A DNA stretch of 64,000 nt from Apostichopus japonicus (Eukaryota; Echinodermata; Holothuroidea; Aspidochirotida; Stichopodidae). The notes beneath the pieces are model-generated. The model made no database searches and had not been told where the DNA came from. It saw only the letters and a program-made list of their open reading frames with translations. A program made the translations under genes and the position numbers. Shown piece by piece: positions 32,144 through 64,000 of this stretch (position 1 is the stretch's first letter; each line of letters begins with the position of its first letter). Location of the stretch: the NCBI RefSeq assembly GCF_037975245.1, contig NC_092580.1, positions 10,879,501 through 10,943,500 on the forward strand. Direction: 5' to 3'.

Positions 32144-35100
32144 TTAGGCCTCGCTGTCATTCGATTTCCTCCAGTGCTTAGGATGAAAACCGTGAAACGT
32201 GGGACTGATGGGTATGATGCTGGTCCACGACCACTTTCTCAACAGACCCATTATCAGCGGGAGGTTGTAGACTGGCGAGTGCGACCCTGTTTCTTCTTCT
32301 TCTGCCTCCTCGCCGGCGACGGTCGTAGCTTCGATCCACTTGACCAGACCTCGCTCCTCTGGGGTTCCTTCGGAGGGAGAGAAAAAAATTTCAAAGATGA
32401 TTGGAATATAAAACAGCTTGTATAGAAATTCCCTCCCCACCCCTCCACCCTCTCAAAGCACATAGAAAAATAAAAGCTTGTATGGAAATTCCCTCCCACC
32501 CCTCCACCCTCTCAAAGCACATAGAAAAAAAAGGTTGTATAGAAATTCCCTCCTCTCAAAGCACATAGAAAAATAAAAGCTTGTATGAAAATTCCCTCCC
32601 CACACCTCAACCCTCTCAAAGCACATAGAAAAATAAAAGCTTGTATGGAAATTCCCTCCCCACACCTCAACCCTCTCAAAGCACATAAAAAAATAAAAGC
32701 TTGTATGGAAATTCCTTTAGAACATGAACATTTCGATATGTGAACAAAACACACAGCAAAGTCTTCCTCCTCCCCCTCCCCTCTCCTCCCTCCTCCTTTT
32801 TCAAAAAAAAAAAAAAACCCAAACACATACCTTTTATGATGTTATCCAAAATCAGCCCAGTTGCCCCACCGACAAACATGCTGGTCTCCAGCAGGACGGT
32901 TAGTATCTGATTGAGTTGATCGCTCCCTGATGAATACAAAAAGGTAAGGATTAGAGATCTTCGACATTATCCACTCTTAACTACAGTAATATAAAAATAA
33001 CAAACTCTCCAATACACACACGCACACACACAAAGTATTAATGAACTTTGAGATTCGGCTGCATATTTCCAATACTTTTCACCCATGGTTTTACAGCCAG
33101 ATCTAGCATGGCATGAAATTATTATTACAATGAATGAATTACCATTAAATGAATGAATCAATTAAGTAATTAATCAATTATTTGATTTTATACTATCATG
33201 ACATTTGCAGGAGGTATATCTGATTTTTTTTTACAGATTTCTAGTAACTTTATCAACCAGAGAGTGCCTGCTGGTATTAATACTGATATTCACCCAACAT
33301 GTCGTACATCTACCTGAGTGAGGCTTCCCTATGCTAGTACATGAGAAGTTGTCTCATTCCGTTATTCCGCCAAAGATAGAAACATTTTGGTTTCCATGGC
33401 AATACATCAAAGCTCAAAAGGGAATGACCGTCTGCTGTATCACATGGATCCATCATCATTTATTTAGAAGCAAGTACCCAGTCATTTTAATAAACCTAAT
33501 AATTCGGATATATCCGTGACTATTGCGAATGAGTGAAAAAACCCCCTACGGGTGCTTCTAATTTAACGGCGAGATTAATAGCACTTTTAAAGTGCCGTAC
33601 ACTTTTCAATTTCAAACTCTTGACGATTATATTCACTATTCCTGATGCAATTTCCGAGTACTGAAACGGACAGACAATGTCTTAAGATACATTATCATTT
33701 TCTTCACTTATCGAGTGAGATACCATCACAGTGTTGCACAAACATGACAAATGCATCTGTTAACCTTTACTAAAACACAGTCACTGATAAGAGCTTATGC
33801 CCTAATTTTTGAATATGCAAAGTAGGATAGGCTAAAGTACATCTATTATGAAAGTGTGGTAGGTAAGCTATGAAGTGATGGTATTTGTTCTGAGATGGGC
33901 TTTCCTAAATATTTCAAGTAATGCTGTAATGGGTATGAATGGATTCAACTCCTTTGGAGTCATCCTCGACTCACTTGTGTCGATGGCATTCTCTGTTGTA
34001 TGGATATAGTGGGGTACTGCTATACCGAGGAAGAGGGACACGCCGAGGATAAAGAGGTTGCGAGAAGAATTCAAGTTGATGAACTGGAGGTTTGAGAAGC
34101 CGACCGCTCCGACCATACCTGTAAATTAGATGTAATTAGACAAATAGTCATAACTAAGACCACCATTGTAAGTTCTTGTATCCATTATACGTTTTCATGT
34201 TGCCATGGTACCAATTTAATAGAAAACCGCTTATTCATATTTTTGGCAGAAATTCTATCCAGTACATCCCCTCCCCCTGCTACTCCACCCACCCCACCCC
34301 CAACAAAACAAAACAAGAGAGAGACGACCCTCCCATGTAAAGAAGAGGTTTCAAGTAGACACCTTGCAGGGCAAAACCAGTCTGTGAAACATTTTAATCT
34401 AGCCCATGAAACAAAAATCTTCCCCACTTTCTTGCACTAGAGACCCTTCGGGCCATTCATGGGTGTGGAGGTATCTATCCCTGCACTTTGCTGTTCAGCC
34501 ATAAGGTCATTTGGTGTCAAGTCCTGTTTTGAATATTTCTTTAAAATAATTATGAATATTAAACAATCTGATATATGAGTGCATACAAATATTTACAACT
34601 CCGGTTTACGACATTTCTTGATTACCGTGGCTTCTTACAACACTATGACTGCTTTTAAAAGGAAGTTAATAAAAATATTAATGACTGATTGTCATGGTTA
34701 CAATGGCTTCTCTTACTACACCATGACTTTCAATGGTTCAATCATAAAATCTACTTTTCATCATGATTTCTACAACACTCTACAATGCACTCTTCTCAAA
34801 GAACAATGAAACGTTACTTACCAAATGTAACAGCAAGGACGCCACCAATAACCGGCACTGGAATCGTCGAAAAGATGGCGTTGAGTTTTCCGCACAGCCC
34901 GACGACAATGAGAAACGCTCCGCAGGCCTGGATCACTGCCCTGCTACCGACCTGAGATGGAAAAGAAACGAAAAAGGGCGAATGATTGACAGCAGGACAT
35001 CTTCAAATATAGCAAAGATTACTACTTTATTTCAAGCAAAAAAGCTAATATCATCCTTGAGCAAACAGCAGGATAAGAATAAGCAGATGCCAGGAGCAGA

Positions 35101-38100
35101 AAATGGTCACATAGATAACATTTACCACACTGTAATAGGGTATAAAGTTTACATAGGTTTCTCAAGGTCATTCAAGTTAACGGAACATTGCTGCTATCCA
35201 GTCCAGTATACATACGCACAAGAAGAAGTGTAGCCAGGGGGGCTTATTTTATCATGCCACCTACCACCACCTAGCACCATCTTCCTCTCCCCCCCAGTCC
35301 CCTTATAACCAGCCACGGATGTATAAAAAATCCAACTTAGTGGACAAAAGCAAAAGTAAGATTCGGTATATTTGCCATCGCCATGTTAAATACCTTTGTG
35401 AGTCCGATGGCGCCAATGTTTTCACTGTACGAGGTGGTACCATTCCCAGTGCCCCAAAGACCAGCCAATAGACATCCCAATCCCTCCATCGCGATGCCTC
35501 TATTGACAGCGTGGGCGGGTGGCGGGGGCGCACCACTGAGTCGGGCACATGCGTAGTAATCCCCGATGGACTCTATCATCGAAGCAATCACGCCAGCCAG
35601 CATGCCTAGAAATCCAGCGAGCGTGACCGTTGGAACGCCCCACTGTCCTGTGTAGCATAGATAAACGAACAACAATTTTCAGCTGCCTTAAGAGACAAAT
35701 GTTCCAGCTTAGAACGAAAAAAAGGAAAATTTATATTGATATCATGTTGCCTAAATTCATATTTCCTTTATTATGCCTTATATGTTTTGCTTTATATGTT
35801 AATAAAAGTCCTACTTTTCAATTTTTTTTAAAAACATTATGGGGGGTTATGTTAAGAACTCTTCTTTTCTTTTTAAGTTTTTAATTCTTTCCTAATTTCA
35901 ATAAATTACTCTTGAACAACATCTGATTCATATAGATAGATTTATTTGTTTCTTAATATTACAAAACGAAGCCATTTGTGATCGATGTGGAGGCTCGGTC
36001 TGATTTGCTTTCTCTGTTATCTAATTTACATTTAATTTACATAACACACAGACAGATACAAAGAGAACCTCGTCATGGTTTTACTGATGCGATTGTGGGC
36101 TAATCTATAAACATTACCGTGAGAGAATGAGGCTGGAAGGATATATACACGTTGATCCATGCACACATCAGACTTGTAATTAGTGCCCTTGGCAAGAATG
36201 GTTTCTCATCATACAATGGCTAATTGATATGGCAGGGATTGTGAAGTCAAAGAGGTTGCATTGTGTAAGAAAAAGTTTTAAAGTAATACTACATCATTGT
36301 TAAGAGCCTAGTTTCTTGCTTGTCAATGTCCACAGCAAAAAAGATGACCGTATCAAAAGTGACAATAAATTCTGACATGCCAAGTAGTATTATTTAGACT
36401 TCTCTCTCGGCAAAAAAAGCAGCGTGTCTGTTTAAATGTACTCTCAAACTTGTGGTCTTTACCTCTTCCCCAGACCTCTCCACACCCCCCTTCCCTTCCC
36501 CCACACCCCCTTCCCTTCCCCACACCCCTCCCTACACCCCTTCCCTTCCCCCACACCCTTTCCCTTCCCCACACCCTTTCCCTTCGCCCACACCCCCTTC
36601 CCTTCCCCCACACCCCCTTCCCTTCCCCCACACCCCCTTCCCTTCCCCCATACCCCATTCCCTCCTCCCCCTGAAATAATGATGAGATGCCACAAATCTC
36701 CTCACCTGGGTAGGGAAATATAAACCAAGGAGAATTTTTCAGCGCATCAGAGTTGATGTCCGTCCTAGCCTGGTAACCGTAAGCGTCGGGATCGTCCGGA
36801 AAGACGCCGAAAGCGGTCAAGACTCCGCAGACCACCCAGGCGATGATGATCGAAATGATGATCTTCAAATCAAGAAAAGAATTAAAGAGATGATTTATAG
36901 ATCAAAAACAAAATGGCGGAGATCTGTATCCGTGGTATTATGCAATTTTCGGTAGGTAGATGCTGTACCCAGGCAAATTTCATACTGTGTAGAGACCATT
37001 TAGTGCGAGGGCAATTCGAAAACGTCTTGCCGCAAAAATATATAAATAGATATAAACACAAATCTATTGGTAATCTCAACCATGACATATAAACCAATTC
37101 ATATACTTTGTGTGACTTGTTTTACGTTCAGCCTTTCCATGATACATATAATTATAAATACAAACCAGTCAAACACCCCACCAGAATGACTTTCCATTCC
37201 TGGCCAGTGCTAATCCATCAATCTGTAAGGAATAGCTGTACATATAGCTATTTAAACTAAGTTCTTAACTAAGTTCACCTGATATGAGAGAAATGCAGGG
37301 CTAGAGTCCTAGACTACCTTGTTGAATGCACAAGCAACGTAGCTTGCGCTTACATACTTATGTGACGGCGAGGGAGGAATGACCTCTGCAGAAAGTAACC
37401 AGCTGTTTGTATTAACAAACTTCTTATCTTCATTCCAGCAAACAATCCCAGGCACGAAAAGTCTATATAAATCCTCTGTAGAGGCAAGGCTAACATGGCA
37501 TCTAGCCAATCAACCATCCAGGACTAGGGGTTACTATAAAGTTACATAAAAGTAACTTGCCAAGTTTGTGTAAATACAGCACCCCATTGTATACATTATT
37601 ATTATTATTTGTAAACTCATAAAGATGAATTATTATATGAAGTCACTATTTTATGTCATCTACAGTAACGATGCACTGAAATGATCTTTCGATATGTTGC
37701 ACAACAATAGCACATTGTAAAACTCCATAGGTAAAGAGTAATCATTAACTCACTATTAAGTCATGTTAATTTCGCAGGGGTCAAATCATTTTCTAAGGTC
37801 GCATAAATATTAATGACTTTGTAGACAGAAACTGTGTAAACTATTGTATGTCTTGCGTGTCGTTTGTTAAAGTTGTTTCACGCTGACCTAAGCCAGGAGT
37901 GTGGTCCATATCGATATGATTTTGAAACCTTCTCACCGGGCTGCAGAAGCAAATGCGAGAGCCGCGCTCTGCCCACCTGGTGGTGGTTTACTTGTCGTGA
38001 ATTGTCACGTCGTAAACTTTTCTGTGTCCCCAAAATAATTTATTCTCAACAAACAATAACATGGTTTCACTCCCAGACAAAGGGTGTTGTATCTATCGGG

Positions 38101-41100
38101 GTTCGCCTTACTTTCTTAAAGACCAGACATAATGATCTCTGTGCTAGACTAAGTTGTCCAGCAACTTTGATCAATGAGCCTCTAAATGAGATTGATGGGT
38201 TCCATTTTGCCAAAATATTAAAGAGAGGGGAAACAAATAGTCTATTAAAAGTGCTAGCAGTATTTTTCTATCAGTCTACATACAGCATATTAGACTTAAT
38301 CTTGTGCAAACATTCATCCAGTTAAACACCATGCATTTACTGTATGTTGAATAGTGTAACAACACCAGGCTTCATACTCATATACTACAAGCTACAGAAG
38401 GACACGCCAACACCATATACACACAACGTTACATCCCAGATCAAAATCATAGGATCATATCTCCAGACGTTCATTTTACGACAAGAAAAAAAATACAAAA
38501 TTATTAGTTTATTATAAAGCAGAGGGCAACGTTAAAAAAAAATTAATGGAAAACCATGTGCAGGTAATTGCCTTCTTTTAACGTTTAAATACATATGAAT
38601 TGTTTCATAATAATAGAGAAAAGCACATACCGGGAATAAGGTGAAAACCGGAAATTTCTTGCCCCCCGGTAACGGCAGTTGTACGTTACCCAGCAGTTGA
38701 GAGAAGACTGTGATCAGTGCAAAAGTGCTGTGGGAGGAGAAATGCACAGAAACAGTAAAATGGAGTGATAAGCAAACGCCCTCGTGCATTGCTCTACTTA
38801 TACCGCCGTTCGTGCCGTTTCCTGCAATGGACGCACGGTAGTCTGTTGGTTGACCCCTAATTGTTTAAAGGTACAGGCTGTGTTTAAACTGTTAGTGCTT
38901 TATTGGTTGAAACAGAACAGAATAACATAACCCCTATTTTGACAAGCAATCGTACACAAATGACCCACAGCAAACACTAGTTCGAGTTTGTGAGCAGTCT
39001 CTATTCAAACAATCAAACTATTACAGACAAAATGCAGAAATTTTAACCAGCTTCCATCAAACAAAACAAAACAATTTTCAATTGAAGAAATCCAAACATC
39101 AATCCACGTTTTTAGAATATTACTCTCTAAGAACTCTTTTATTTACAGAGTAAACCTATTTCTACAGAAAGGAATCTTAGATCCTTTATTACAACTTTTT
39201 GATAAATTTTGTAACAAATTTTATGGTTTATGATTTTCATAATCTCTCAAACATTTATATGTCTCAACCTGTATTCTTGATGTTCTTTATTGTTATAATA
39301 CTTTTTTATTACACTATTTATAAATTTCCCATAAATTTACACTGATATAAAGATGAATAGATGAATGAATGAATGAATCACTCTGCAATTTCAGATCATG
39401 ATGATTTTTACAGTTCTGAAGTGGACGGAGATGATCGAAGAGTGTAAATATCACCGAAGGTGGAAACCTTTGTGAGAGATTTATTGTGTTTGTGCAGTCT
39501 GAGTGTTGGCAAGCACACATAGGTGTGTACATACGTGTGAACACACAGACACGCAACTCGAACGATTGGAATAGGGATTTGATTATTTTCCTTTAGCTTT
39601 CTGCAAAGAATGAAAGTCAAGGCCACTTCAACATAGCCACTTAACAAGGCCACTTTAACGCTTTAACAAGGCCACTTAAGCAAATATTTATGACCAATGT
39701 CATAATGTAAAGAAGTAATCTGAACAAAGTTTAACAGCAATGACTTAAAAGATATGGCTTTTCTATCTAATTTCTTTTTCTTTTTCAGTAGATGATATTT
39801 TTATTCATATAATTTTGTAACTTTTATTTTATAACAATTATGAGTTATCTCTCTGTGATGGATGGCATCGGGTACTTTAGGAATCCCTTGGTTTTGCTGA
39901 TGATCGATAAAGTTACAACCTATGTCGAGTAATAAATGGCCCTTCCTTGAATTCAACAACAATCCAACACTCAAGATTGTAACTACCACATCTCATTCAA
40001 AGACTTGGAAGTTTATCCAAGTTTAACAGTTATATTGGTTTTCAGACTTTTACCACCTCAAACATGTGAAGTACCAGCGGCTCATTAATACTTTATGACT
40101 GGGCATGTTTACAAGCTATGTTCAGACTTTGATCACTGTTCACTGCAAGTGACCTCTGACCTCCACAGAAAAAAAAAACAGGATTCTTATACTCACTAAA
40201 ATCCCATATACTGCACACACAAACAAGTATGTTGAAGAATGTTATAGTGATTTATACAAGGCTTTCAGAGCGGTTTCTAAATACTTCAATGGCCTTTGAC
40301 CTTCACATAAAACAATAAAGTTCTTGTCCCCAATAATGTGGAGCATTATACCACATATCACATTTCACCAAGTTTACAGTAATATTGGTTTTCAGACTTC
40401 ATCACCTCATCTCATCACCTCAAATGACTTTCGAGTGGACCCTTTGTTAACAACAAAACACTAGCCTCGTACAACTGGACACCTTACATATAACTGATAG
40501 GCGTTTGTGTTAGTTTACTCCCTCCTCGCCCACCCCACACTCACACCCCCCCTCACCCCCCATCATAAGGAAAGAAAACAGGACTCACAGAAATCCTATC
40601 CCCCAGTGTGTTGACATCTGGCCTTCAGCGACACTAAAGAGTGTGATACCTATAAGGCCGATGGTCGGTGCAATTGTCAGAGGGCCAATGAAGCGAAGCA
40701 AGATACCTATGGCCCCGGTACATCCTAGTACTATCTGAACCAGAGACGACACGATGATCGCGCCCTGGAGCTGAAAAGGCCCAAAGAAAATGTTATATAT
40801 GATTAAAAAAAAACTTAAAAAGATACGTCACATGTGAAAAAGAAAGAAAAAACAAACCCTCACCTATTCCTTTTTAATAGTCTACCAATTTTCACCGATT
40901 CAAATTTACACTTCAACTTGAAGAAGTTTGCGGGCAAATCAATCACAGAATATTGAAAGGAAATTTAGCATCCATTTTTGTGGAACACAACTTCTTCTAA
41001 GGCTGGATTAAATGTTCAGTGAGTATGTATGTATTCAAGCAGTTTGTGTGGAGACCATTACTGCTAACAAGACCCTCTCCAACACACCCAGTATACACCC

Positions 41101-44100
41101 TCCCCCTCACAGCTATATTCCTTTCATTTATCTGTACCTCTCTACCCCTGTACCTCTCCACCCCACTACCTCTCTACCCCTCTACCTATTTACCCCTCTC
41201 TCCACCCCTCTACCCCACTACCTCTCTACCCCTTCTACCTATCTACCCCTCTCACCACCCCTCTACCTCTCTACCTCTCTACTCCAAGCTCTCATCTTTC
41301 AAAACTCACATCTCGTATCCTTCCGTGCCAGAATTCTTCGGCATCTGCTACTGATGTTGCATTGGCTGTAAAAATAGTGATACTAATATTAATATTTGTT
41401 TTTTGGTGATGGATTAAGCTCAGCTCTTTAGCTTACTTATATTCAGCAAACCATCAAAAAGATTAGTAACAACAAAAGGTATTTAATTAAAAAACTTAAA
41501 ACAATGAAAAAAGCTACACCAAACACTTCAAACAAGACTATGGTGGTAGTTTAGAGAAATGAAACAGTTTGGCTGTTTCACAGATTACCCCTACCCCCTC
41601 TTTTTGGTATTTGTATGTAATTAGCATCTTCAGTGAAATTATGATTCATCTTAAAAGTTGCGTTTGCATAGGACTGTAACCTTGCACCATTCTGCGAAAG
41701 CCACATAATACTTGCATATAATTGAATTGGATACCCTCAAATGACAATATGATATATTAATGAAAATCAATAGTGCAGAGCATTAAGGAAGTTTGTTTTG
41801 TTTTATTGTAATGAAATGTTTGAGAGTGAAAAATTCCTTCACTCTTGTTCCTGAGGTTTCTTGTTATGCAATGAAGTTAGGTCTCGGTATGTGTATCAAG
41901 TGAAATAGATGATTTCTACATCTCAATAGACGATACAGTTCACAGTTTGTTCTTAGTGCCCATTCTGAAAATAATAATTATAAGTCTTTAATCTGTAAAT
42001 TCTCCACTCGTGTAGTCTCTGGTGTCTCGACTCGGGTGGAAAGACCGTTTTGAAATGAGCTGAGATAAAGACTATAGAGTCTGCTCTCAGACGGCCTCTG
42101 GGCTCATCAAAATACAAGAGCCAAAAACTCCACAACCCCCAGCTTAAAATGTTCATAATCAATATCTATATCTAATATGGTTAAAACCATTAAATCCTTT
42201 AGACTTTATAGCAGGTTATCAGCCAAAATAATATAAACCAGACTATTTTGTTCCCTGCAAAATGCCAAGCTGCTTTCTCATTTGCAAAAAGCCTTTTGAC
42301 ATGTTACACTGATCTAAGATGTAATATATTTGCATATTTATGATTTTCAAATATAATCTCAAATCACAAACCGGGATCAAAAGTCATGCACGGTCCTCGC
42401 ACATTCAAGATGGCGAATGTAGGTAGAAGGAAAGTAAATGTACCGCCTTGCACGATCGGTAATCTGAAAAAGCCAAACATAATACAAAATTAAATAAAAC
42501 TTTCCCACAAACGAGAGCAATAGAGAACTTGTACATGTCTGCAAGAGAAACAAGTCTACAACTACAAAGGAAATAAATTTTACAACTGCAAAGGGAAACA
42601 ATTCTTCAACTGCCAGTAAACTATCATTTGGTTCAGAAAGTAGCCAGCAAAAATGATGAAAGATTAGTTCATTGAAACTTATTGTCAAACATTCAGAAAA
42701 CACTTTCCAAGAATACTTTTAATGGAAAGTCATGGTGAATGACTAGTCACTAAACAAGGATCTTCCACAAACTTTAACCCATTCCCAAATCAGCAACTAA
42801 TAGTCTAATACTTTTGTGAATTTTGAATTTTCTGAGAATTGTTTAACATAAATTATGGAACTACTAACAATTAGCATACAAACATTGATACTAATTTGGA
42901 TATGCATGCCATTCTTGACTATTTTTTTTGGCATAGCAGTCGGTGTATTTTCACACAGCAATGTGATCATTTCTGCATAGAAATGTGACCATTGTAGTAG
43001 CATAGCAGTCTGACCATATTTGCATACCAATCTGACCATATTTGCACAGCAACCCGACTTTTTTGCAAAGGAATCTAACCATTTTTGCAAAAGAACCAGC
43101 AATCTGACCATTTTGGCACAGGAGGACTCCAATACTTTTCTGGCATTGCAATTGTTCAGTCAGAAACCATTTTTCCTTTCCTTGCACGTTCCCTTCCAAT
43201 CCTGACCTCCAAATCCACAAAATATTTTCGCTTGCAAGTACAACAAGGTACATTATTTGTTCAATAACAAAGGTGTATACTCAAACTCAATTAGCAATTT
43301 TCACTTCGATTTGGCAGTTGACCTTCTTACTCTCTCACCTCTGGGAAACAACCTACGGTTACCGTTACCTCTGACCAGATTGACTTCTACACTCCAAATC
43401 AAATACATCGTCATATAAAGAGGATTGTTAAAGGTTCTTATTTTATTCCTTTTCAAGAAAGTAAACTGTTTGTTCCTTTTTTTTCACTACCTTTATTAAA
43501 CAGAGAGTCAACAGACTATTGCTGCTTGACCACAAGTGAATTTGGTCGCAGGCCAAAAAACCTTTTCAAAGAAAGAGAAGGATGACCATACCACATTACT
43601 TTTATGTGTTTAAACTAGCCAGGGCAGCAACTAATCACTTGATCAAAGAGCTCTATTTCATTGCTTTAAATTGGTCTCATTTCATTGCCTATTTCATTGC
43701 CATAACTTGGAATGGCTTGTACTATAGGGTACATTTTAAACACAGTTAATCTCAGTGTGTTACAAAACCGTAGCTCACCAACTAACAGCTAAAAGTGATT
43801 CCTAAATTCTGGATAAAACACAGAAGCAATCAAATTGTCCCAATGAAAGTAGCTGAATGATTTTTGTTTTGTTCGGGCCCCATTCTACCAAGGGTGTGCA
43901 GGCCTGTACCACTGATTGCAAGACTGTACAATGGTGCACAAAGTTGTGCATTATGCAAATTTAGGTTTCTTCAGAGAGAACTTGAAGACCCTTATTTAGA
44001 TGCACCTTATGAGTTATGAATATCAACATAAAAAGTGGACCATGATTCAGAGGCTTTTTGTAACAAGGTAACACTATGTTTGTTTTTTTTTGCCAAATTG

Positions 44101-47100
44101 TGTCCAAAGAGGTGACTGGTTTGGTGCTTACTGAATATTGAAAATCAGCTCCAAGCAGATTTCTTCAAGATATCTTAGAGGGTGTTTGGTAAATACATCA
44201 GGGCACTTGCCCTCAATTTCTCACTCCCCTCAAGTTTGTGTCAACAACCCCCCCCCCACGAATTGATTCTATAGCTAGCCGATGAAAAATCGGTAGTATT
44301 CATCCTTTCTAAATCCTACAAGTGGTCAATGAGTATAAGCAGTCCAGCGACACTGTATGATGTCACAAAGAAATCAGTTAATTACTATATGTTCAACCAA
44401 ATACCTCTGGACGATTATAAGTCAGAGTACTATAGTTGTGTGTAGACATTATATAGCCAAGTAATAGATGTATATTAAGCCAGGTAACATTACATCAGCA
44501 ATCTTAGAGCTAAGGATGTTAATACCTGATTCCAAACGTTGCTTGGAGTAAAGTCACCAGTCCCGAGACGAAGAAGATAGTCGCAATGAGGTGTGTTTGG
44601 GCCTCGGGAGAATGAACGCAGAGAGGAACGGATATAATGAGCGGTATAGACAGCACACCGCTAAACATCAAAAGAAAATGCTGCCATGGAAAAGACAATA
44701 TAAATCATTATGGGGCTAAAACTGCAACAATGACAAGGTTGGAAAAAACACAAAATTATCTAATGAGACTGTTCTAGAAACAGCCAATTTATAATAATAT
44801 ATTATATATATTTTGGTGATTTTTTATGGGGTGGGTCGGGGGGGTGGACTTCATGATGTTTGTAGTTAGACGTACGTACACATGCCTGCACCAAAATTTT
44901 AGCACACACATAGCATAGATAAATACAGTGCAGTACACAACATCACATGGTCAACCATCGCGACCAATACACAAACTACACACTGTGCAGTGCCGCACTA
45001 ACAAAGCCAGTGTTTTCTTTATGGAAAGATTAAAGCAATGACATTTCTCCTTACAAAAACCAACAACTTTCTTCCTAAATTGGCAAGCTTTGTAAATACA
45101 GTAATGGTGCAAGTTGCGGTTTATGCATATGTTTGTATTATAATATACGTGTATGATATATATATGTTATTTGGTTTGCTTATTCAGAGGACAAAAGGCA
45201 AGGCCGGTTTGTTGGAGGAACAACATGGCAAACTTCTCAGAATAGTTATCCACCCTACGACATCTGCATTTTTTTTTATCATCTTGCTGAATTTGATCTA
45301 AATGTAATGGTTGGGCTCTCCGCTCTACACTAAACTGAATCTATTGAGTACGTACACAACAATCGAGTACCCAACTACAGGAGGCTATTTGCCGAAGTAT
45401 GAAGTGCTATACCATTTGGGGAGTACATAACTAGTCATTGATGTAAAGTATTAGATTTCGCGGTCTCCATGGAAATGTAAAGTCACCAAAGCATCCCTCA
45501 CTGATATCCAACCTCAACTGATTTGTAAACCAATACACATTGGAGTTTAATACTTAACTTGCGAAACATGCTAAGAGTGAGCAAATATAAAAGCATGGTG
45601 AAAATTTATATGCTGTTGGTGTAATTACTCCTCTTTACAACCAGACAAGAAGACTTCCTGCATGACTAGGGATTGAGAAGCAGACGGACCATGAATCCCG
45701 CTGTACATTATTCATAGAGATCTGCCTACCTGTAATCCTAATGCAATTGTTGTGTACCAAGGAGGAACATCATCCACAGAGTACTGTAATTCACCATTAG
45801 CTTCTTTCTTTGTTGTAGTCGATGATGAGGTCACGTTTCGATTTCGGTTCTCATTGCCATCATTGTCTCCAGATAACCTTTCCTGCTCTTGCATGTGCTC
45901 ATAGCCTTTATTCTGGGAAGAGGGTGGAAAGAGAAGATCAATCAAATTGTCATTAAAGAACAGTCTGGTTTCACTATGTTATTTTTGAAGTTTATTTGCA
46001 CCAGTCTCTTCACCACCTCCAATGCTTCTCCCATCTATGGTTTAAGAGAACCTTGTGCTAAACACTTTACCATCATGAGAGAGACATGTTCTTCCAGAGC
46101 ATCACAGCAGATCAAACCCCCCACACCCCTTTCTCCCCCACACCCCTTCCTCCCCCACACCCCTTCCTCCCCCACACCCCTTCCTCCCCACACCCCTTCC
46201 GCCCCACACCCCTTCCGCCCCCACACCCCTTCCTCTCCCACTCCCCTACCTCTCCCACTCCCCTACCTCCCCTTCCTCCCCACTCCCCTTCCCCCACTCC
46301 CCTTCCTCCCCACTCCCCTTCCTCCCCACTCCCCTTCCTCCCCACACCCCTTCCTCCCCATACCCCTTTCTCCCCACACCCCTTCCTCCCCACTCCCCTT
46401 CCTCCCCTTCCTCCCCACACCCCTTCCTCCCCATACCCCTACCTCCCCACTCCCCTTCCTCCCCACACCCCTTCCTCCCCACTCCCCTTCCTCCCCACTC
46501 CCCTTCCTCCCCACACTCCTTCCTCCCCACACCCCTTCCTCCCCACACCCCTTCCTCCTCATACCCCTACCTCCCCATACCCCTTCCTCCCCACTCCCCT
46601 TCCTCCCCACACTCCTTCCTCCCCATACCCCTTCCTCCCCACTCCCCTTCCTCCCCACTCCCCTTCCTCCCCACTCCCCTTCCTCCCCACACCCCTTCCT
46701 CCTCATACCCCTTCCTCCTCATACCCCTACCTCCCCACTCCCCTTCCTCCCCACACCCCTTCCTCCTCATACCCCTTCCTCCTCATACCCCTACCTCCCC
46801 ACTCCCCTACCTCCCCACTCCCCTTCCTCCCCACACCCCTTCCTCCCATACCCCTTCCTCCCCACACCCCTTCCTCCTCATACCCCTACCTCCCCATACC
46901 CCTTCCTCCCCACTCCCCTTCCTCCCCACTCCCCTTCCTCCCCACTCCCCTTCCTCCCCACTCCCCTCCCCCACTCCCCTTCCTCCCCACTCCCCTTCCT
47001 CCCCATACCCCTTCCTCCCCACACCCCTTCCTCCTCACACCCCTACCTCCCCATACCCCTTCCTCCCCACTCCCCTTCCTCCCCACTCCCCTTCCTCCCC

Positions 47101-50100
47101 ACACCCCTTCCTCCCCACACCCCTTCCTCCTCATACCCCTACCTCCCCACTCCCCTTCCTCCCCACTCCCCTTCCTCCCCACTCCCCTTCCTCCTCATAC
47201 CCCTTCCTCCTCATACCCCTACCTCCCCACTCCCCTTCCTCCCCACACCCCTTCCTCCCCACACCCCTTCCTCCCCACACCCCTTCCTCCCCACTCCCCT
47301 TCCTCCCCACACCCCTTCCTCCCCACACCCCTTCCTCCTCATACCCCTTCCTCCCCACTCCCCTTCCTCCCCACTCCCCTTCCTCCCCACTCCCCTTCCT
47401 CCCCACACCCCTTCCTCCCCACACCCCTTCCTCCCCACACCCCTTCCTCCTCATACCCCTTCCTCCCCACTCCCCTTCCTCCCCACTCCCCTTCCTCCCC
47501 ACTCCCCTTCCTCCCCACACCCCTTCCTCCTCACACCCCTTCCTCCTCATACCCCTACCTCCCCACTCCCCTTCCTCCCCACTCCCCTTCCTCCCCACAC
47601 CCCTTCCTCCCCACACCCCTTCCTCCCCACACCCCTTCCTCCCCACACCCCTTCCTCCTCATACCCCTTCCTCCCCACTCCCCTTCCTCCCCACTCCCCT
47701 TCCTCCCCACTCCCCTTCCTCCCCACACCCCTTCCTCCTCACACCCCTTCCTCCTCACACCCCTACCTCCCCACTCCCCTTCCTCCCCACTCCCCTTCCT
47801 CCCCACTCCCCTTCCTCCTCATACCCCTTCCTCCTCATACCCCTACCTCCCCACTCCCCTTCCTCCCCACTCCCCTTCCTCCCCACTCCCCTTCCTCCCC
47901 ACTCCCCTTCCTCCCCACTCCCCTTCCTCCCCACTCCCCTTCCTCCCCACACCCCTTCCTCCCCACTCCCCTTCCTCCCCACTCCCCTTCCTCCCCACAC
48001 CCCTTCCTCCTCATACCCCTTCCTCCCCACTCCCCTTCCTCCCCACTCCCCTTCCTCCCCACTCCCCTTCCTCCCCACACCCCTTCCTCCTCACACCCCT
48101 TCCTCCTCATACCCCTACCTCCCCACTCCCCTTCCTCCCCACTCCCCTTCCTCCCCACTCCCCTTCCTCCTCATACCCCTTCCTCCTCATACCCCTACCT
48201 CCCCACTCCCCTTCCTCCCCACTCCCCTTCCTCCCCACTCCCCTTCCTCCCCACTCCCCTTCCTCCCCACACCCCTTCCTCCCCACTCCCCTTCCTCCCC
48301 ACACCCCTTCCTCCCCACTCCCCTTCCTCCCCACTCCCCTTCCTCCCCACACCCCTTCCTCCTCACACCCCTTCCTCCTCATACCCCTTCCTCCCCACTC
48401 CCCTTCCTCCCCACTCCCCTTCCTCCCCACTCCCCTTCCTCCCCACACCCCTTCCTCCTCACACCCCTTCCTCCTCATACCCCTACCTCCCCACTCCCCT
48501 TCCTCCCCACTCCCCTTCCTCCCCACTCCCCTTCCTCCTCATACCCCTTCCTCCTCATACCCCTACCTCCCCACTCCCCTTCCTCCCCACTCCCCTTCCT
48601 CCCCACTCCCCTTCCTCCCCACTCCCCTTCCTCCCCACACCCCTTCCTCCCCACTCCCCTTCCTCCCCACACCCCTTCCTCCCCACTCCCCTTCCTCCCC
48701 ACTCCCCTTCCTCCCCACACCCCTTCCTCCTCACACCCCTTCCTCCTCATACCCCTTCCTCCCCACTCCCCTTCCTCCCCACTCCCCTTCCTCCTCATAC
48801 CCCTACCTCCCCACTCCCCTTCCTCCCCACTCCCCTTCCTCCCCACTCCCCTTCCTCCCCACTCCCCTTCCTCCCCACACCCCTTCCTCCCCACTCCCCT
48901 TCCTCCCCACACCCCTTCCTCCCCACTCCCCTTCCTCCCCACTCCCCTTCCTCCCCACACCCCTTCCTCCCCACTCCCCTTCCTCCCCACACCCCTTCCT
49001 CCCCACTCCCCTTCCTCCCCACTCCCCTTCCTCCCCACACCCCTTCCTCCCCACTCCCCTTCCTCCCCACTCCCCTTCCTCCCCACTCCCCTTCCTCCTC
49101 ATACCCCTTCCTCCTCACACCCCTTCCTCCTCATACCCCTACCTCCCCACTCCCCTTCCTCCCCACTCCCCTTCCTCCCCACTCCCCTTCCTCCTCATAC
49201 CCCTTCCTCCTCACACCCCTTCCTCCCCACTCCCCTTCCTCCCCCACACCCCTTCCTCCCCACTCCCCTTCCTCCCCACTCCCCTTCCTCCCCACACCCC
49301 TTCCTCCTCACACCCCTTCCTCCTCATACCCCTACCTCCCCACTCCCCTTCCTCCCCACTCCCCTTCCTCCCCACTCCCCTTCCTCCTCACACCCCTTCC
49401 TCCTCACACCCCTTCCTCCTCATACCCCTACCTCCCCACTCCCCTTCCTCCCCACTCCCCTTCCTCCCCACTCCCCTTCCTCCCCACACCCCTTCCTCCT
49501 CACACCCCTTCCTCCTCATACCCCTACCTCCCCACTCCCCTTCCTCCCCACTCCCCTTCCTCCCCACTCCCCTTCCTCCTCATACCCCTTCCTCCTCATA
49601 CCCCTACCTCCCCACTCCCCTTCCTCCCCACTCCCCTTCCTCCCCACTCCCCTTCCTCCCCACTCCCCTTCCTCCCCACACCCCTTCCTCCCCACACCCC
49701 TTCCTCCCCACTCCCCTTCCTCCCCACACCCCTTCCTCCCCACTCCCCTTCCTCCCCACTCCCCTTCCTCCCCACACCCCTTCCTCCTCACACCCCTTCC
49801 TCCTCATACCCCTACCTCCCCACACCCCTTCCTCCCCACACCCCTTCCTCCCCACTCCCCTTCCTCCCCACTCCCCTTCCTCCCCACACCCCTTCCTCCT
49901 CACACCCCTTCCTCCTCATACCCCTACCTCCCCACTCCCCTTCCTCCCCACTCCCCTTCCTCCCCACTCCCCTTCCTCCCCACTCCCCTTCCTCCCCACT
50001 CCCCTTCCTCCCCACTCCCCTTCCTCCCCACACCCCTTCCTCCCCACACCCCTTCCTCCTCATACCCCTACCTCCCCACTCCCCTTCCTCCCCACTCCCC

Positions 50101-53100
50101 TTCCTCCCCACACCCCTTCCTCCCCACACCCCTTCCTCCTCATACCCCTTCCTCCTCATACCCCTACCTCCCCACTCCCCTTCCTCCCCACTCCCCTTCC
50201 TCCCCACACCCCTTCCTCCTCATACCCCTTCCTCCTCATACCCCTTCCTCCCCACTCCCCTTCCTCCCCACTCCCCTCCCCCACTCCCCTTCCTCCCCAC
50301 TCCCCTTCCTCCCCACTCCCCTTCCTCCCCACTCCCCTTCCTCCCCACTCCCCTTCCTCCCCACTCCCCTCCCCCACTCCCCTTCCTCCCCACTCCCCTT
50401 TCTCCCCACACCCCTTTCTCCCCATACCCCTTCCTCCCCACACCCCTTCCTCCCTGTGCTTTATTACTTCCTGGGTCCTTTCTGGCTGTTGTGTAGTTAA
50501 TAGTCAGAAATGGTCTTTGTCCATGTTCAGATTGAACCCAATGTTTATCCCTGACCAAGATGTCCTTGGTTGAAGCAGTGCAGTTTAGTTTGAGACTTGG
50601 TAGCTGGAAGATATAGGCCTACTAAGGCTTTCTTTCTCCTATCCCTGTACCATCTATATAGGCAGTGTTCATACGGAGTAAAGTAAAGATATTGTATCTC
50701 CCTGAGTGTAGTATTGGCGTTTATATTACATGTGTAAATTATAAGTATTGGAGGACTTTAATATATAGTCTCTATTGGAATTATATTCTTGTATGTTTAT
50801 TTTTCTATTACGCTACCTAAATGACTGTTAGATCATGCTATGACAAAAACTACGCTACAAAGAATTATGAATTAATGAACCAATAAAACAAAAATTTAAA
50901 CAATGGACATAACACTGAGAGCCTACGCCGGCTAACGATATGACCGCCGTTGAAGCAATTAACCAACGGCGTGACGGCTATTGCTGACGGGGGGATCATG
51001 TCGAGAAACACCTTCCAGAGCAAATTAGACACCTGTTGAACCTACCACCCTCTTCAAGCATGTGTAACTAGCCTAGCCTACACTGCGTATACGATGACTG
51101 AAATTGTTCTCGTGCATAGGGGAAGCTAATAAACACAGAATGTACATCTAGATATTTACACGGTGGTCACTTGAAAGAAAAGGCATGAACCGTATGACAT
51201 TGTTCATTGCTCCTCGTAAGGGAACACTGGTTGTAAACTGTGTTTATTCATCTCGATTTTATCACACGCTAAAATTAAGATAATATTGTAAACTGAATGC
51301 TTGGGTATAAGCGCATTGCAATTGCATTGCAACTGGGTAGTACTCCATATGTCATTCGAGTCCCATTTGTATGCAGTTACTTCTTAGCGGTTTGAAAGTT
51401 CGTATGTTATCTATGTCAGGTTTGTTGTTTGCTAATAGCAAACTCAATGAATGCTGAGAAAAACGCCTTTCAACCCGCAATGAAGTACTACCGCATTGTC
51501 ATTTATTACTGCAAATTACATTGAATAGAATAAATATGTGGTCGAATCTGGCATGTATGTGATTGGCGTTCGTAACAAGGTAGACTAAAATAACAAATGG
51601 CTTTAAGGGCAACATTATTTCTCCTGTATACGCTAGAAAAGTCGAATATGGATATTGCCTCGTGTTAACATTGTAACATACCTCGATGTAGGGGGGGAGG
51701 GGGGTAGGTAGAGAACGTCAGAGAAGAACTGTTATGAAAATTTTAACACAGGACTATTTTCTGATGATCTATTAAAAAAAATGTCACACCGGTTATGAAT
51801 GTGTTATATTTCCTATGTCCTAAAGGAAGGCCCAAAGTGTATTGAAGTAGTGACTCAACTTTGAAACGCCAGTGCTGTTCACAAAAACACACCATTTGTA
51901 CATTTATTTTCGTAATTTCTAGCTGAATTACAAAAAGTAGTGCCGCTGTCGCTTTGCCCTGCTTTCACTGTGTTGTAATACTTGCGTGATAGTCTGATGA
52001 AATGGCCATGTGCAACTGTAACCCACTTATTACGATATCACATCACAAGTTGAATAAACTCAAAATAATGACGGGGACATCTATCTTTCGTATGTAGGGC
52101 CTAGTCCGAGAGGAAATTTCCGGAATTATCTCCGTTTTCGAGTCACTTCCAAAGGCAGCCACACATCTTTGTCCCTTCTCTAATGATACTAAAATACTTG
52201 AAAATCATGGGAAACTTAAGAAAATATAATTACAATAATGTTGGGAACTTTATTGGAAATCCAGAGAAAAAAAATTACGGTATAGGGTCCAATTTGCGTA
52301 TGCTACAGTGTGTTAGGATAATAGTTAGAAATTCACGGAAATATATATAATATATAATAATATTGCACACTGAAGCTATATAGGACTACCCGCATTTCGA
52401 AAAAAGAGCACATTAAAAAAATTTACGAGAGATACGACTCAAGAGAGCGTACTCGCCTTTAAATCTGCCAAACTTCATGGTTAATTAGCTAGTATGCATT
52501 AATGACACATGTATCTAACATGGAACAAGATCAATTTTCACGGCAGAAGTTGGGAACATTTTACGTTAGAGCGCTCGCTTCCTTCCTCTTCCGAATTGGG
52601 TTAATTTTGGTAAACTTTGCGATAAACTATAAACAACAGATCTTAAGCTACCTTACTAGTGCGTTTCACTTGCAAATACAGTAGGGCCAAGCTTCATTTC
52701 GAAATCATGGGGGGGGGGGGGGGGGAATATCCAATAATTTAAGTTTGAAAAGGAGAAAAGAAAAGAAACGGGATTTGTATAGGCCTATGTGCTTAACATT
52801 GTCGAAAAGTGAAAAAAAAAAGTGTTTTAACAATCGAATGGAATCACTACGTATACAACTACATCATAATGACAAGTATACTCTCCTTGGTATGGGTGCA
52901 CGGTGCTTAATATTTAATAAGTGGTGTGCTTAATAATATTGCACACTGAAGTGAAGAGCTATATACCAGCATTTCCAAAATAAAGCACATGAAAAAATAT
53001 ACGAGAGATACGACTCCAGACAGCGTTCTCGCCTTTAAGTCTGCCAAACTTCATGGTTAATTATAGTTGTACTTACAGGTCATTAGTATATATTGCCCCG

Positions 53101-56100
53101 AAAATATGCTAGTAAGTAAAATAATGGTCAGTCATGCTCAGACTACAACAAACATTTACTATGACCCTGCAAGGTCTCACTGAGACATTTAATAATCTAA
53201 TTGAACACTCCGAAATCACTGAATATTATATAGTCACATCATTTCAGAAAATAGTTTGGAAAAACTATAGCAAATTTATAAGCAATGTACAATTATACAT
53301 TTATTGGGGGGGGGCAATAACGATGATGCTTGCTAAAGAAAAACTCTTGGAATGATGTCATCGCTTGATCAAATGCAAACTATATTTCAATGCACCAAAT
53401 TATGTTCAGTTTGTTAAAATTGCCGAATATTGGTGACGATCGAACTCAAGTACAGAATATTCGATGGAAAATAGCGCAAGATATATTGACAGAACTCAAT
53501 ACCGTACAATACGGTTGCAACTCTGAAGATGAAACTCTGATGTCAGGGGTGGCCTTGGATGTGGGGTCACGTGGCACACGCTTCTACTTGGGCAGTCAAA
53601 CACGTGACTGATTTGGTTGGAGTAACCAAAGTAACATGAACTCGCTCTGATAAAATGAAATTCCCTGTGCGTTCCCGTACCACAAATTTCCATTCTTCTT
53701 GTTTTAGATAAAATATTTAGTACATGTTTCAACAACAGAGCAATTTTTAATTATCTTCTTTCTTCAATTTCTCAAACAAAAGGCAATTCTCATATCTCAA
53801 AATAGCAAACGACTGACAACGTTCTACCGAAGAGAAAGAGGTTTCTTTTTGTTATAAAGATTTTTCACAAAGGGGACGTGCCCTTGACACTGGAAAATAT
53901 TGACTAATTTTCATTTCTCTTTCCACAGGGTGTGAACTGCCTAAAGAGTAGGCCTAGTTCTAATGTATATGGGTAAAAACGCCGAAAGTCAATGACCACT
54001 GTTAATCAGTAAGATAAAGTGTTTGTGTTTAAAATATCGGCCTAACTTTAGAATCCGTACCATATGAATGGTAAAGCTTAATTCGAATAGGCAGAATAAG
54101 TTTAGGGGTAAGAAAGTAGGGTTAAGGAGTAGGGTAAGTAGGAATTAGGGTTAGGAAGTAGGGAATATGGTTAGGGGTTAAGGTAAGGAAGTAGGGAATA
54201 GGGTTAGGGGTTACGAAGGCTTACCAGTCAAAACGTCCCTTTACCAAACGTCCCCGTACCAAAACGTCCTCGTATCAAAACGTCCCCGCTTTTGGTCAAA
54301 ACGTCCCCGCTTTTGATCAAAACGTCCCCGTTGGTCAAAACGTCCCCGTTGGTCAAAACGTCCCCGTAAGTCAAAACGTCCCCGTCTATCACATTCATTC
54401 ACAGTTATGAATATATTAATTTCAAGTTATAATTTGAATTCAGAAAAAAAAATAAACGTATATGCTGTAGGAAAACATATATCACGTTCATCCAGCCCGT
54501 CTCGCATATTCCAAAAGTAACTTGTTGTACGTAAAAAAAAATCTTTTTTATTCCCTTCCCTCAATATCGTATATATTCATTCAGAAACCAACTCGTGTTT
54601 AAAAAAATCCTATTACCCTATACAGCCCTCTTGCATTCATTTTCTATTTATATTATCTTACCTCAGAAAATTTTACTCAAAAATGTTTCCGCCCTCATAA
54701 CCGGCACTTCCCACTCCCTAAAAACTGTGTTTCAACCAGAAGTATAATTATCCTTACTCTTTGATTTGAACTAAAAACATTCACACTTGCATTCCAACTG
54801 ATTATAAAAAGCGGGGACGTTTTGACTCACTCGCGGGGACGTTTTGACTGCGGGGACGTTTTGGTAAAAAGCGGGGACGTTTTGGTCTTAAAAAAGCGGG
54901 GACGTTTTGGTAAAGGGACGTTTTGACTGGATACCTTACGAAGTAGGGTCGATTGGTACGGATTCTAAATTAGTACCAAAATATCTTCGAATTATTTACT
55001 CTACTTGCTGTGAAAATATCTGCGGATATTTATGGCAAACGTAGCACACATGCATGGTGCAGTCAATTAACAGACAGCCGCACCACGCATGGTATTGCTT
55101 AATATACACTGCTTATAAATATACTAACATACACAAAGAGGTGCGCCTAAGCTATATGCATTTTAAGGGATATTGAGGCGACTGAACTTAATTCCTTTCA
55201 AACTAAACATTATTCTGCATGTTAGGTACGAACACACATCTTCATAACATTTTATAGAGCGATGATTGGGACACATTTGTGTGATAGCTTGTGAATGCAT
55301 CTGCCAACAAAGTTAAAAAGTTACGTGACCGTATCCGGATATAATAAATATAGATAGGTAGGTTAAGGGGCGTCCAATGTACGCGTAAAACTTAGTACAT
55401 AGCTTAGAAATTATAATGGAGATGAATGAAACCCATCCCAAGCTACAGCTTCCGAATTAAAGACAGAAAAAGAAACAAGGTTTTGGTCGACGTATCTCCT
55501 TTTACCAAAGCTACACCGAGTACTTACTTATACCCAGTGGCGTAGGAAGGTACTTTTGAGTGGGGGGGGGGCTGAAGACTGATGGCCGGCCTGGGGAGGG
55601 GTCTAAGGGGGTGTCCCCCTCCCCTTTGGAATTTTTTGCATTTCCAGGTAGCCTCAGATGCAATTTGGTGCAATATAGCACACTTCAACACCCACTCCAT
55701 TTTGTAAACTTAATTTTGTATTTTCAGTTTTTCACCAGGCCTTAGATGCAATTTGGTGCTCCAAATGAGATTTTTTTTTCTCATTTGGAAATGAAAAAGG
55801 GGTTTTCTGACTTGCGAAGCGGGCGGGCGGAATGATACTTCCGCCCCTCCACATTTTTCACTGGGGGGGGCTGGCGCCCCCCAGCCCCCCCCCCCCCCCC
55901 GGTTCCTACGCCCTTGCTTATACCATAAGTGAATATGACTGATCAAATTAAGCAACCCTCGTTTTTTCCCCCATCAAAATGAACGTTTAATTGTTGTCAA
56001 ACGGAATGACTTCGACCTGGCTACGTTGTTATTCCCTGCCTGGATTTCATACTACAGTGTATATATTATGCTATCTGCTAAAGTACCAGTCAAATAAAAT

Positions 56101-56382
56101 AAAAGCAGAAATAACATCAGCAACAAAAAAGTTACTCGAAACGCAAGTTTTGGACGTAGTCGAGCATATGACTTGGCATTCATTGCTTGAATTAAGTATG
56201 GAATAAAGCATATAAGAATAAATACAGACATGATTCAACATGCATCTATATAGATACCGTACCTCTATCCCGTTCTGTTGGCCCGGCTGGAGGTTATTCC
56301 GGGTCTCATTTTGTGCGCTCGATATTTCTACGTCTTGGACCGAAGCAGAGATTGTATTTACACCGTTGCTTCTTGCCGCCAT
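32144..56382 (-). CDS. SLC23-type nucleobase/ascorbate transporter (SVCT-like), 629 aa, 13 exons
   Basis: Exons in transcript order: 56382-56263, 45912-45730, 44680-44526, 42463-42372, 41365-41310, 40770-40589, 38727-38631, 36862-36706, 35647-35394, 34951-34822, 34118-33975, 32926-32831, 32367-32144. All joints keep frame (1890 nt, stop TAA 32144-32146). This is a multi-pass plasma-membrane protein of the NAT/NCS2 family, which in animals mostly moves ascorbate or nucleobases with sodium. Family marks: DVPPWYTT before the first membrane helix, LPIVQGGTF (exon 4), GDYYACARL at 376-384 after E373, and the NAT signature [10 protein letters not shown] at 423-432. E373 and E423 correspond to the substrate-binding glutamates of bacterial UraA (by analogy). 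[17 protein letters not shown] and [11 protein letters not shown] near the C-terminus are typical of SVCTs. The cytosolic N-tail (1-90) is polar. Substrate cannot be told from sequence alone. Exon 4 has a weak donor (gtttgt). Confidence 0.94.
32404..32717. repeat. 60-bp minisatellite (about 5 copies) in SLC23 intron 12
   Basis: Units begin at 32421, 32481, 32538, 32584, 32644 and 32704 and read roughly TATGGAAATTCCCTCCCC...CTCTCAAAGCACATAGAAA...AAGCTTG. Copy 3 has lost 14 bp of the C-rich part. The array starts about 35 bp upstream (in transcript sense) of the exon 13 acceptor. A CT-rich stretch and poly(A) follow up to 32820. Confidence 0.92.
36478..36672. repeat. C-rich minisatellite next to the SLC23 exon 8 donor
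   Basis: About ten degenerate copies of an 18-20-bp unit CCCCTTCCCTTCCCCCACA. On the transcript it reads GGGAAGGG-type, beginning about 33 nt after the exon 8 donor at 36705. The unit resembles the 16-bp unit of the large array in intron 1. Confidence 0.9.
37540..38630. other. SLC23 intron 7, repeat-like sequence without assigned gene
   Basis: The plus strand has a stop-free stretch at 37864-38325 with no recognisable domain and no splice partners. Its phrase CATCCAGTTAAAC near 38311 also occurs at 27790, so part of it is probably dispersed repeat. Nothing else supportable was seen. Confidence 0.35.
40090..40460. repeat. Dispersed repeat with DR1-like motifs, SLC23 intron 6
   Basis: The segment shares the phrase TTTCAGACTT(T)...ACC...TGACCT with 58930-59830. 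It carries TGACCTCTGACCT (40150-40162, complement AGGTCAGAGGTCA) and TGGCCTTTGACCT (40290-40302), both direct repeats of nuclear-receptor half-sites spaced by one base. Confidence 0.6.
41100..41288. repeat. CT/CTAC-rich low-complexity tract next to the SLC23 exon 5 donor
   Basis: Degenerate repeats of CTCTACCCCTCTACCT. On the transcript it is purine-rich (AGGTAGAGGGGTAGAG) and begins about 22 nt past the exon 5 donor at 41309. The repeats contain many GGTAGA/GGTAAG-like cryptic donor sequences. Confidence 0.85.
42945..43125. repeat. Degenerate 20-28-bp tandem repeat in SLC23 intron 3
   Basis: About seven copies around the core TTTGCA(TA)nnCAATCTGACCAT, strongly diverged. The open frames on both strands through it come from its short period. 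Confidence 0.7.
46117..50454. repeat. 4.3-kb minisatellite of a 16-bp pyrimidine unit in SLC23 intron 1
   Basis: About 270 copies of TTCCTCCCCACTCCCC with a few recurring variants (ACACCCC, TCATACCCC, TACCTCCCC). The plus strand is nearly free of G; the minus strand, which is the RNA strand of SLC23, is GGGGAGGAAGGGGAGT without break. Every frame stays open because 16 is not a multiple of 3 and the unit makes no stop, giving false proteins of about 1500 Pro/Leu/Ser residues. In part of the array, blocks repeat at 368 bp (23 units), for example 48061-48428 against 48429-48796. The array ends about 205 bp before the exon 2 acceptor. Confidence 0.97.
52357..52487 (+). repeat. Direct repeat, copy 1 (about 130 bp)
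   Basis: Shares TAATATTGCACACTGAAG, GAGAGATACGACTC and CTGCCAAACTTCATGGTTAA with 52931-53065 in the same order. The copies lie 570 bp apart. Confidence 0.8.
52931..53065 (+). repeat. Direct repeat, copy 2 (about 130 bp)
   Basis: Partner of 52357-52487, with scattered substitutions and a few small indels. Confidence 0.8.
54047..54969. mobile_element. Foldback-type element with tandem-repeat arms (CAAAACGTCCCC)
   Basis: The outer ends TTTAGAATCCGTACCA (54047-54062) and its exact complement (54954-54969) bracket two arrays of one motif in opposite orientations. Nine CAAAACGTCCC(C) copies lie at 54229-54385 and six GGGGACGTTTTG copies at 54812-54926, around a 425-bp AT-rich spacer. Adjacent CCAGTCAAAACGTCCCTTTACCA-type sequence is also inverted. 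Sea urchin TU elements are known foldback transposons with tandem short repeats in their arms; this has the same design but a different motif. There is no coding capacity and no clear target duplication. Confidence 0.75.
54101..54210 (+). repeat. Telomere-like degenerate TTAGGG/GTAGGG tract
   Basis: About 110 bp of GTAGGG, TTAGGG and TTAGGGG words with spacers, inside the left arm of the foldback-like element. It is too degenerate for a recent telomere insertion; the two periodic signals may belong to the element. Confidence 0.5.
55535..55916. mobile_element. hAT-type MITE (382 bp)
   Basis: The left end CAGTGGCGTAGGAA and the complement of the right end CAAGGGCGTAGGAA are inverted repeats (12 of 14). 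A perfect 8-bp duplication CTTATACC flanks it (55527-55534 and 55917-55924). Poly(G) follows the left end and a long poly(C) precedes the right end. It lies in SLC23 intron 1, about 350 bp from exon 1. Confidence 0.9.
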
Positions 56383-57539
56383 TATCTGTGTTGTTGTTTT
56401 GCCTTCTTTCGTTTGTACTGAAAAGTTTTAGCGACACGTTTTTTGACATTGGAAGCTCTTTATGACTCAGATACCAAGATGAAGATGTTGTTTGCTCTAT
56501 AGTCAAAAGTGTTATCGATAACAAAACGCGCTGGCAAAGTTTGTTCTGTAGGCAACTTGTAAACTGAGTTTTGACGCTTGTTGAGCAATCACAATCGAAC
56601 GAGTTTGTCAACAATACAAAGGACATTTTTAAATGCCATTCGGTCTTGGAATATTTAGAGCCATACTTTTTGGTTTCAGAGGAGAGCGCCCTCTAATAGG
56701 TCAACGTTCTCCTATTTAATAAAATTGGCAGAATGCATTACACATTTTGTTCATCTCCTTACACGGAAATGAAGAAAATGTACAGCATTCAGCCGAAATT
56801 CGCAATTAACGGCCGAATGTGAATTATGCAGAAACTTAGCTGAATACATTGTTTTTGTTTGTTTATGTTTACAGCAATTCCTATCATGTTCAGTAACTAT
56901 ACAATGAATCCCATTTCTTTACAAGAATGCTAAAAATGCATGTAACATGAGCAGTTTTCTTCATGAATCTGACGTAATGTATAGTGAGGGTGTACAACTT
57001 ACTTGATCTTAGTAATATGATGAAAAGCAGTGTCATGTGACAAACAATACATTCACAATGATACAGACTGTCTGTCCTGAAAGCACCATTTACCTCAACA
57101 ACAGGCTTCTTGTACTAAATGTGATAGATACAACAACATACTAAATATGACATCTGTCCTTGTTGAAATATTAAATTACGAATACCGATACATCTGTTGC
57201 TGATTGTCAGGATCGGTTAATTCCAGCCGAATATTCTTTAGTGTATCAATTTATGACTTAGGCTTTTATACAAATACTTTTATGTAGTGTTAGATAGCCT
57301 AACGAATATCTTACACCGATGTTGTTTCCGCCGACAGTTGGTAATCGATGGCGCTATCCCACTTCATAATAAAATTTTAACAGCTTTTTGCGTTTTTATC
57401 AGCGTTTTTCATTTCTTAGTATCCAAATATTTTCTTTACAAGTACGTTACTTATATTTAAAAGAAGCAATAGTTCTACCGAAGACAAATGTCAGTATTAG
57501 ATTACATTCACCAGAAAGCCTTATAAGGTTGTATATGGA

Positions 57540-59830: not shown

Positions 59831-59908
59831 TCCTTCTGAAGTAAGAGTGTTTACGAGCAAGTGTCACATACTGTACACACACATTACAGTATGTCATACA
59901 CACGCCAT

Positions 59909-63901: not shown

Positions 63902-64000
63902 GCTGAAGAGGACGCAATAAACTATACTGATGGTCTAAAAATCTTGAGGACTGAAGGTGATTTTAAGGCATTTTAGAAAATCTTGGGTGAAACAAGAAGC

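Follow-up and report, generated by a model that had tools for sequence, protein, structure and literature searches.

A window of 64,000 nucleotides from the holothurian Apostichopus japonicus (NC_092580.1, positions 10,879,501 to 10,943,500 of the forward strand; all positions below are those of this window) contains an SLC23 gene and, beside its first recognised coding exon, a long G-rich minisatellite (Table 1). The gene lies on the minus strand, as the initial annotation had claimed: eight exon blocks match SLC23A1 in order, and the permease identity is backed by Pfam PF00860. At E ≤ 0.01, every matched chain was SLC23A1; thus, this is likely an animal SVCT-like SLC23 gene. Blocks for SVCT1 residues ~105-154 and 224-253 were not located. 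The exon nearest the array is matched weakly by phmmer to the N-terminal part of two solved SLC23A1 sequences (E 0.0088 and 0.063), and when 7176 AGs are ranked by an ad hoc score, its acceptor is among the best 0.07%. The minus strand at 28703-28925 holds a second version of this exon, 78% identical, that includes its splice sites and 45 bp of intron; with an in-frame stop, it is best read as the remnant of a duplicated gene or exon. Second copies of the other located SLC23 exons were not found below E 0.06 within the window.

Table 1. Features of the SLC23 locus and of the neighbouring minisatellite (window positions).
Feature	Position	Strand	Remarks
Eight further SLC23 exon blocks	32180..44722	(-)	Alignment limits, not exact exon ends
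SLC23 exon blocks, part 1	~44522-44722, 40567-40773, 36704-36871, 35313-35666	(-)	
SLC23 exon blocks, part 2	~34805-34957, 33973-34128, 32829-32933, 32180-32380	(-)	
First recognised SLC23 coding exon	45730..45912	(-)	3' part aligns to SVCT1 residues 13-50; donor CAG/GTAGGC
Non-array spacer between array and exon	45913..46116	(-)	204 nt; polypyrimidine tract and CAG at its end
16-bp minisatellite, ~271 units	46117..50454	(-)	RNA-sense unit AGGAAGGGGAGTGGGG; Tandem Repeats Finder and wrap-around alignment
Exon-proximal edge, less homogenised	46117..46984	(-)	Rare-difference units and irregular spacings
Homogenised core	46985..50249	(-)	Regular 16-bp units, variable only at positions 3, 6, 7 and 13
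Far edge	50250..50454	(-)	2 of 10 rare-difference units (50388, 50404); three irregular spacings

In the direction of the gene, the array lies 205 bp upstream of this exon. Because the gene is on the minus strand, the coding strand of the array is its G-rich strand; the plus strand is C-rich and of the i-motif type. The array had been described as intronic and just before exon 2. Its place beside the exon holds, whereas the words "exon 2" and "intronic" both depend on a first exon that was not found: a Pfam search of all six frames of 50462-64000 returned only a sub-threshold reverse-transcriptase match. That match (PF00078, 28.2 bits against a cut-off of 29.6) lies on the minus strand at 58442-58660, upstream of the array, and is possibly a retroelement fragment. 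Two phase-0 ATG-to-donor candidates with donor scores of at least 8 occur upstream beyond the array, ending at 62754 and 60568. Within the gap between array and exon, a donor at 46070 (ATG/GTAAAG) is moderate, with a score of 5.91 that 4.3% of GTs outside the array equal or exceed. The array most likely sits in the first intron of the SLC23 gene; with no exon 1 found, it could instead be promoter-proximal. Relative to an intronic splicing VNTR, which lies in the intron beside the exon it affects, the locus thus offers the strong acceptor 205 bp away but not the preceding exon.

The roughly 270 copies of a 16-bp unit reported by the initial annotation are real and correctly placed. Tandem Repeats Finder delimited 46119-50454 (period 16, 272.2 copies, 91% matches), and wrap-around alignment of the full 4338 bp to the plus-strand unit CCCCACTCCCCTTCCT gave 271.3 units with 308 edits (92.9% identity). 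Allowing up to 3 mismatches, a search of the window finds the unit 292 times, whereas chance predicts 1.27 and the highest count in 100 shuffles was 5. With head-to-tail units in the range of ~10-60 bp and a kilobase-scale length, the array is a minisatellite of a known, G-rich type, and an unusually long one; it is probably a length-variable VNTR, of which the block copy and uniform core described below are indirect signs. Because the unit contains no stop codons, the plus strand is open in three frames for 1473-1539 aa from stop to stop; a coding array was rejected. A transposon origin was likewise set aside: the flanking 700 bp and 1500 bp have in common only isolated words of 10-11 bp, at one place in direct and three in inverted orientation. 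Rfam and tRNA scans gave no matches, and a 32-mer of the unit had no exact match in genome_contigs and viral_contigs, which carries little weight for these prokaryotic and viral collections. The literature was similarly silent as far as its matches go. The papers listed for SLC23, intron and tandem repeat did not evidently deal with tandem repeats in the introns of this gene; the best 10 of 13 matches containing GGGGAGTGGGG look unrelated by title and start of abstract, apart from some concerning other G4s; and among the matches listed for invertebrate or sea-urchin minisatellites, none by title described such an array.

Other repeats are present in the window. Smaller tandem arrays, C-rich on the plus strand and all G-rich in the RNA sense, lie between SLC23 exon blocks at 32410-32715, 36480-36663 and 41135-41282. 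A common origin of these three with the main array was not upheld, as the longest common words were 13, 9 and 12 bp and 30 shuffles each reached 18, 16 and 10 bp; only the array at 32410 exceeded chance, by 2 bp. At 54224-54930, two small CAAAACGTCCCCGT-like arrays stand in inverted orientation ~0.4 kb apart and resemble the ends of hairpin-type mobile elements, and a degenerate AT-rich array with 65-bp and shorter (17-23-bp) periods occupies 23527-24000. Tracts of C- or G-runs (G4Hunter ≥ 1.5) occur about once per kilobase; on the plus strand, C-rich tracts outnumber G-rich ones by 41 to 24 (p=0.046). A strand bias specific to the gene was not borne out (10:2 in the gene versus 31:22 elsewhere, Fisher p=0.18).

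The units carry a readable history. Among 265 units fitting the search pattern, which excludes units containing G, the minor allele was counted 56 times at position 3, 49 at position 6, 131 at position 7 and 28 at position 13. Other, rare differences, some of which reflect small indels, affect only 10 units: eight at 46119-46844, two at 50388-50404 and none between. The exon-proximal edge also includes the units at 46186 and 46202, both of which have a G at position 16. The 15 irregular spacings follow the same distribution, 11 of them falling within 46136-46969 and three within 50250-50420; in the core (46985-50249), one 17-bp unit at 49225 is all that breaks the register. In 258 units, T at position 7 (131 units) never occurs together with T at position 3 or 6, which marks out two unit lineages.

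The order of the units is non-random and includes local block copying. A run of 26 units from 48009, in the core, recurs 23 units (368 bp) later; the longest repeated run in 100 randomised orders each was 13 units for shuffled, 17 for first-order Markov and 21 for third-order Markov sequences. Across the whole array, the 23-unit distance was reached by 49 of 300 shuffles, so this copy represents one local event. Of 13 distances tested, similarity between units exceeded all 300 shuffles at 1, 5, 6 and 40; at 2, 3 and 8 it was no higher than in any shuffle, and at 10, 13, 20, 23, 80 and 120 it was not extreme. Of the 55 gaps between successive units with a broken G-run, 24 had a length of 1 and 18 a length of 4 to 6. 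Taken together, the uniform core, the variant edges and the block copying make the core look recently amplified, and block-wise copying in such a core would leave a pattern of this kind.

Potential for G-quadruplexes (G4s) on the RNA-sense strand was a central claim of the initial annotation, and the GGGG runs with 3- and 5-base loops are indeed there. The minus strand of the array (2876 C, 1029 T, 431 A and 2 G on the plus strand) has 481 runs of at least four G, separated by 480 spacings of 3 nt (209), 5 nt (206), 12 nt (58) and other lengths (7, three of them 11 or 13 nt). The G4 prediction for the minus strand that had been suggested returned dense motifs, with four G-runs and loops of up to 7 nt: 96 disjoint G4s with runs of at least four G, against a mean of 23.7 and a maximum of 37 in 200 mononucleotide shuffles, and 99 with runs of at least three (shuffles: mean 68.2, maximum 82). 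The density of motifs thus exceeds what base composition gives, and the array is a putative G4 tract. To say that motifs run "throughout" was slightly too strong, as coverage is 80-82% and chains are interrupted by 61 spacings longer than 7 nt, 58 of them 12 nt, the longest unbroken chain comprising 37 G-runs. Most breaks fall where GGGG has become GAGG, that is, at the C-to-T change at position 3, which breaks one G-run in a fifth of units (56/265).

Predicted energies temper this picture. ViennaRNA gave RNA quadruplex energies of -73 to -143 kcal/mol for 11 array windows of 160 nt, against 0.0 for the same windows without quadruplexes; the antisense strand also gave 0.0, in a run that leaves out i-motifs. 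The remaining minus strand averaged -30.5 over 119 windows (lowest -79.5). Dinucleotide shuffles of the array windows (20 per window) had means of -72 to -106, however. The array windows fell below these means by no more than 0.1 to 2.2 standard deviations, so composition accounts for a large part of their predicted quadruplex energy. The array may fold into four-stranded structures. Selection on its G-runs is not claimed, since the variants are few and related by descent.

The claim of R-loop-prone composition likewise stood. A QmRLFS-like scan found the G-clustered, G-rich non-template strand of such regions in a merged stretch at 44985-50454 on the minus strand, a result that concerns composition only. 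In the window, it marked seven such stretches on the minus strand, three of them touching the SLC23 gene, and none on the plus strand. The opposite strand had been called almost pure pyrimidine and capable of triplex DNA. Its pyrimidine content is indeed 90.0%, but the longest pure run is 24 nt and the median 13, and the triplex proposal failed a simple test: none of 55 exact mirror repeats (arms of at least 10, loops of up to 8) is free of purines, as a homopurine-homopyrimidine H-DNA tract would be.

The explanation that we consider probable is that the array is a G-rich VNTR, likely in the SLC23 first intron, which grew by slippage and block copying and has no dedicated role, its quadruplex structure being, as part of the same account, a by-product of the unit. 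Multiplication of a 16-bp unit carrying two GGGG runs to ~271 copies is plain from the sequence; it would have proceeded by replication slippage, together with the copying of multi-unit blocks through unequal exchange or a break-induced process. Quadruplex folding on the G-rich strand may have aided this growth, such that the unit promotes its own instability; CEB1 and CEB25 in yeast are reported precedents for G4-linked minisatellite instability. The lack of a dedicated role is argued from the absence of evidence for function.

The closest known types are the human insulin-linked ILPR, the PKD1 intron 21 tract, TERT VNTR6-1 and the ABCA7 VNTR, as described in PMC11696556, PMC12852952, PMC11830802 and PMC5954066. 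VNTR6-1, in TERT intron 6, has a 38-bp unit, spans 2241 bp in the reference and precedes exon 7 by ~3.5 kb; when it was deleted in two cell lines, exons 7 and 8 were included more often. Like the array, it places sense-oriented predicted G4s upstream of an exon, in similar number (35-113 G4 copies per allele versus 96 disjoint motifs here), but the splicing effect tested there is a possibility for the array. The ABCA7 intron 18 VNTR is likewise a kilobase-scale tract adjoining an exon; its alleles reach greater lengths (to 10,678 bp, ~427 units), and skipping of exon 19 rises with VNTR length. It differs in its 25-bp unit, which starts with the splice donor itself, and the ABCA7 paper has 0 mentions of G-quadruplex. 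The PKD1 intron 21 polypurine-polypyrimidine tract is also of kilobase scale, with 38 predicted G4s, and PKD1 sequences are reported to form R-loops in vitro. H-DNA-forming and mirror-repeat sequences are reported there, whereas the array has no purine-free exact mirror repeat and, judged by exact mirrors, does not class as an H-DNA tract of this type.

These precedents bear on the first alternative, that the array is a length-dependent regulator whose RNA G4s and R-loops, 0.2-4.5 kb upstream, alter exon inclusion or elongation rate. Sense-strand G4s near an exon, the R-loop-type composition and the human cases of TERT (G4) and ABCA7 (a length effect, with no stated G4) are in keeping with it, but we regard it as unlikely. 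Both acceptor and donor of the exon are strong by simple scores, leaving less room for splicing regulation. Furthermore, in a comparison of eleven eukaryotes, enrichment of G4s at splice sites was reported as restricted to mammals and birds; it was limited in lizard and, at most, minimal in fly, nematode and Arabidopsis, with relative depletion in frog and zebrafish (PMC9065059); at 205 bp from the acceptor, the array also falls outside the 100-nt windows of that comparison. Cryptic splice donors offer no help: the 28 donor-like sites in the array (GAG/GTAGGG), although nine times as dense as in the remaining minus strand, show no excess over 200 shuffles (mean 26.2, maximum 39).

A second alternative, which we judge about as unlikely, holds that a real first exon lies in the 204-bp gap, making the array promoter-proximal like ILPR and either a homotypic cluster of factor sites or a G4/i-motif switch. 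ILPR resembles the array in its short G-rich unit, two GGGG runs and short loops, and i-motifs are expected on the C-strand. The 11-mer GGGGTGTGGGG, part of the ILPR unit ACAGGGGTGTGGGG, occurs 66 times in the array, alongside 234 copies of GAGGAAG. ETS and KLF/Sp factors would bind these cores. The moderate donor at 46070 is preceded by an in-phase ATGATG, and no exon 1 was found. This donor scores below the best donor candidate beside seven of eight located exon blocks, however, and above that of only one, while the two stronger ATG-to-donor candidates lie beyond the array. Membership of the ILPR type also fails on structure: ILPR is built of 14-bp units and precedes the INS transcription start by 363 bp, whereas the array has a 16-bp unit with one 5-nt loop, is probably intronic and has only the 11-bp core in common. 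A 2026 ILPR paper states in its title that i-motif rather than G4 stability regulates insulin expression, so the C-strand i-motif of the array should not be left out. Finally, an assembly artefact with a true copy number much smaller or larger is very unlikely, for although internal repeats identical over 400 bp or more, but never over 500 bp, would be beyond the resolution of short reads, the ordered variants, irregular edges and uniform core look like genuine array history.

If the array is a G-rich VNTR without a dedicated role, as we favour, any effect on SLC23 would, we infer, at most be to lengthen and slow transcription of the intron via G4s and R-loops. It is a highly doubtful proposition that the recently amplified array acts as a length-tunable brake on an SLC23 (ascorbate) family transporter through sense-strand G4s and R-loops, its intact G4 units grouped, typically in threes to fives, between single or paired broken-G units, in a lineage without known G4 splicing control. 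As a natural example the array is clean: sense-strand G4 motifs close to an exon, repeated almost uniformly over a great length, with an amplification history that can be read from its units. Should its length vary, it would be a good natural test, beyond mammals and birds, of whether G4 arrays influence transcription or splicing; should it have no function, it would show how freely such arrays can grow in a transcribed gene.
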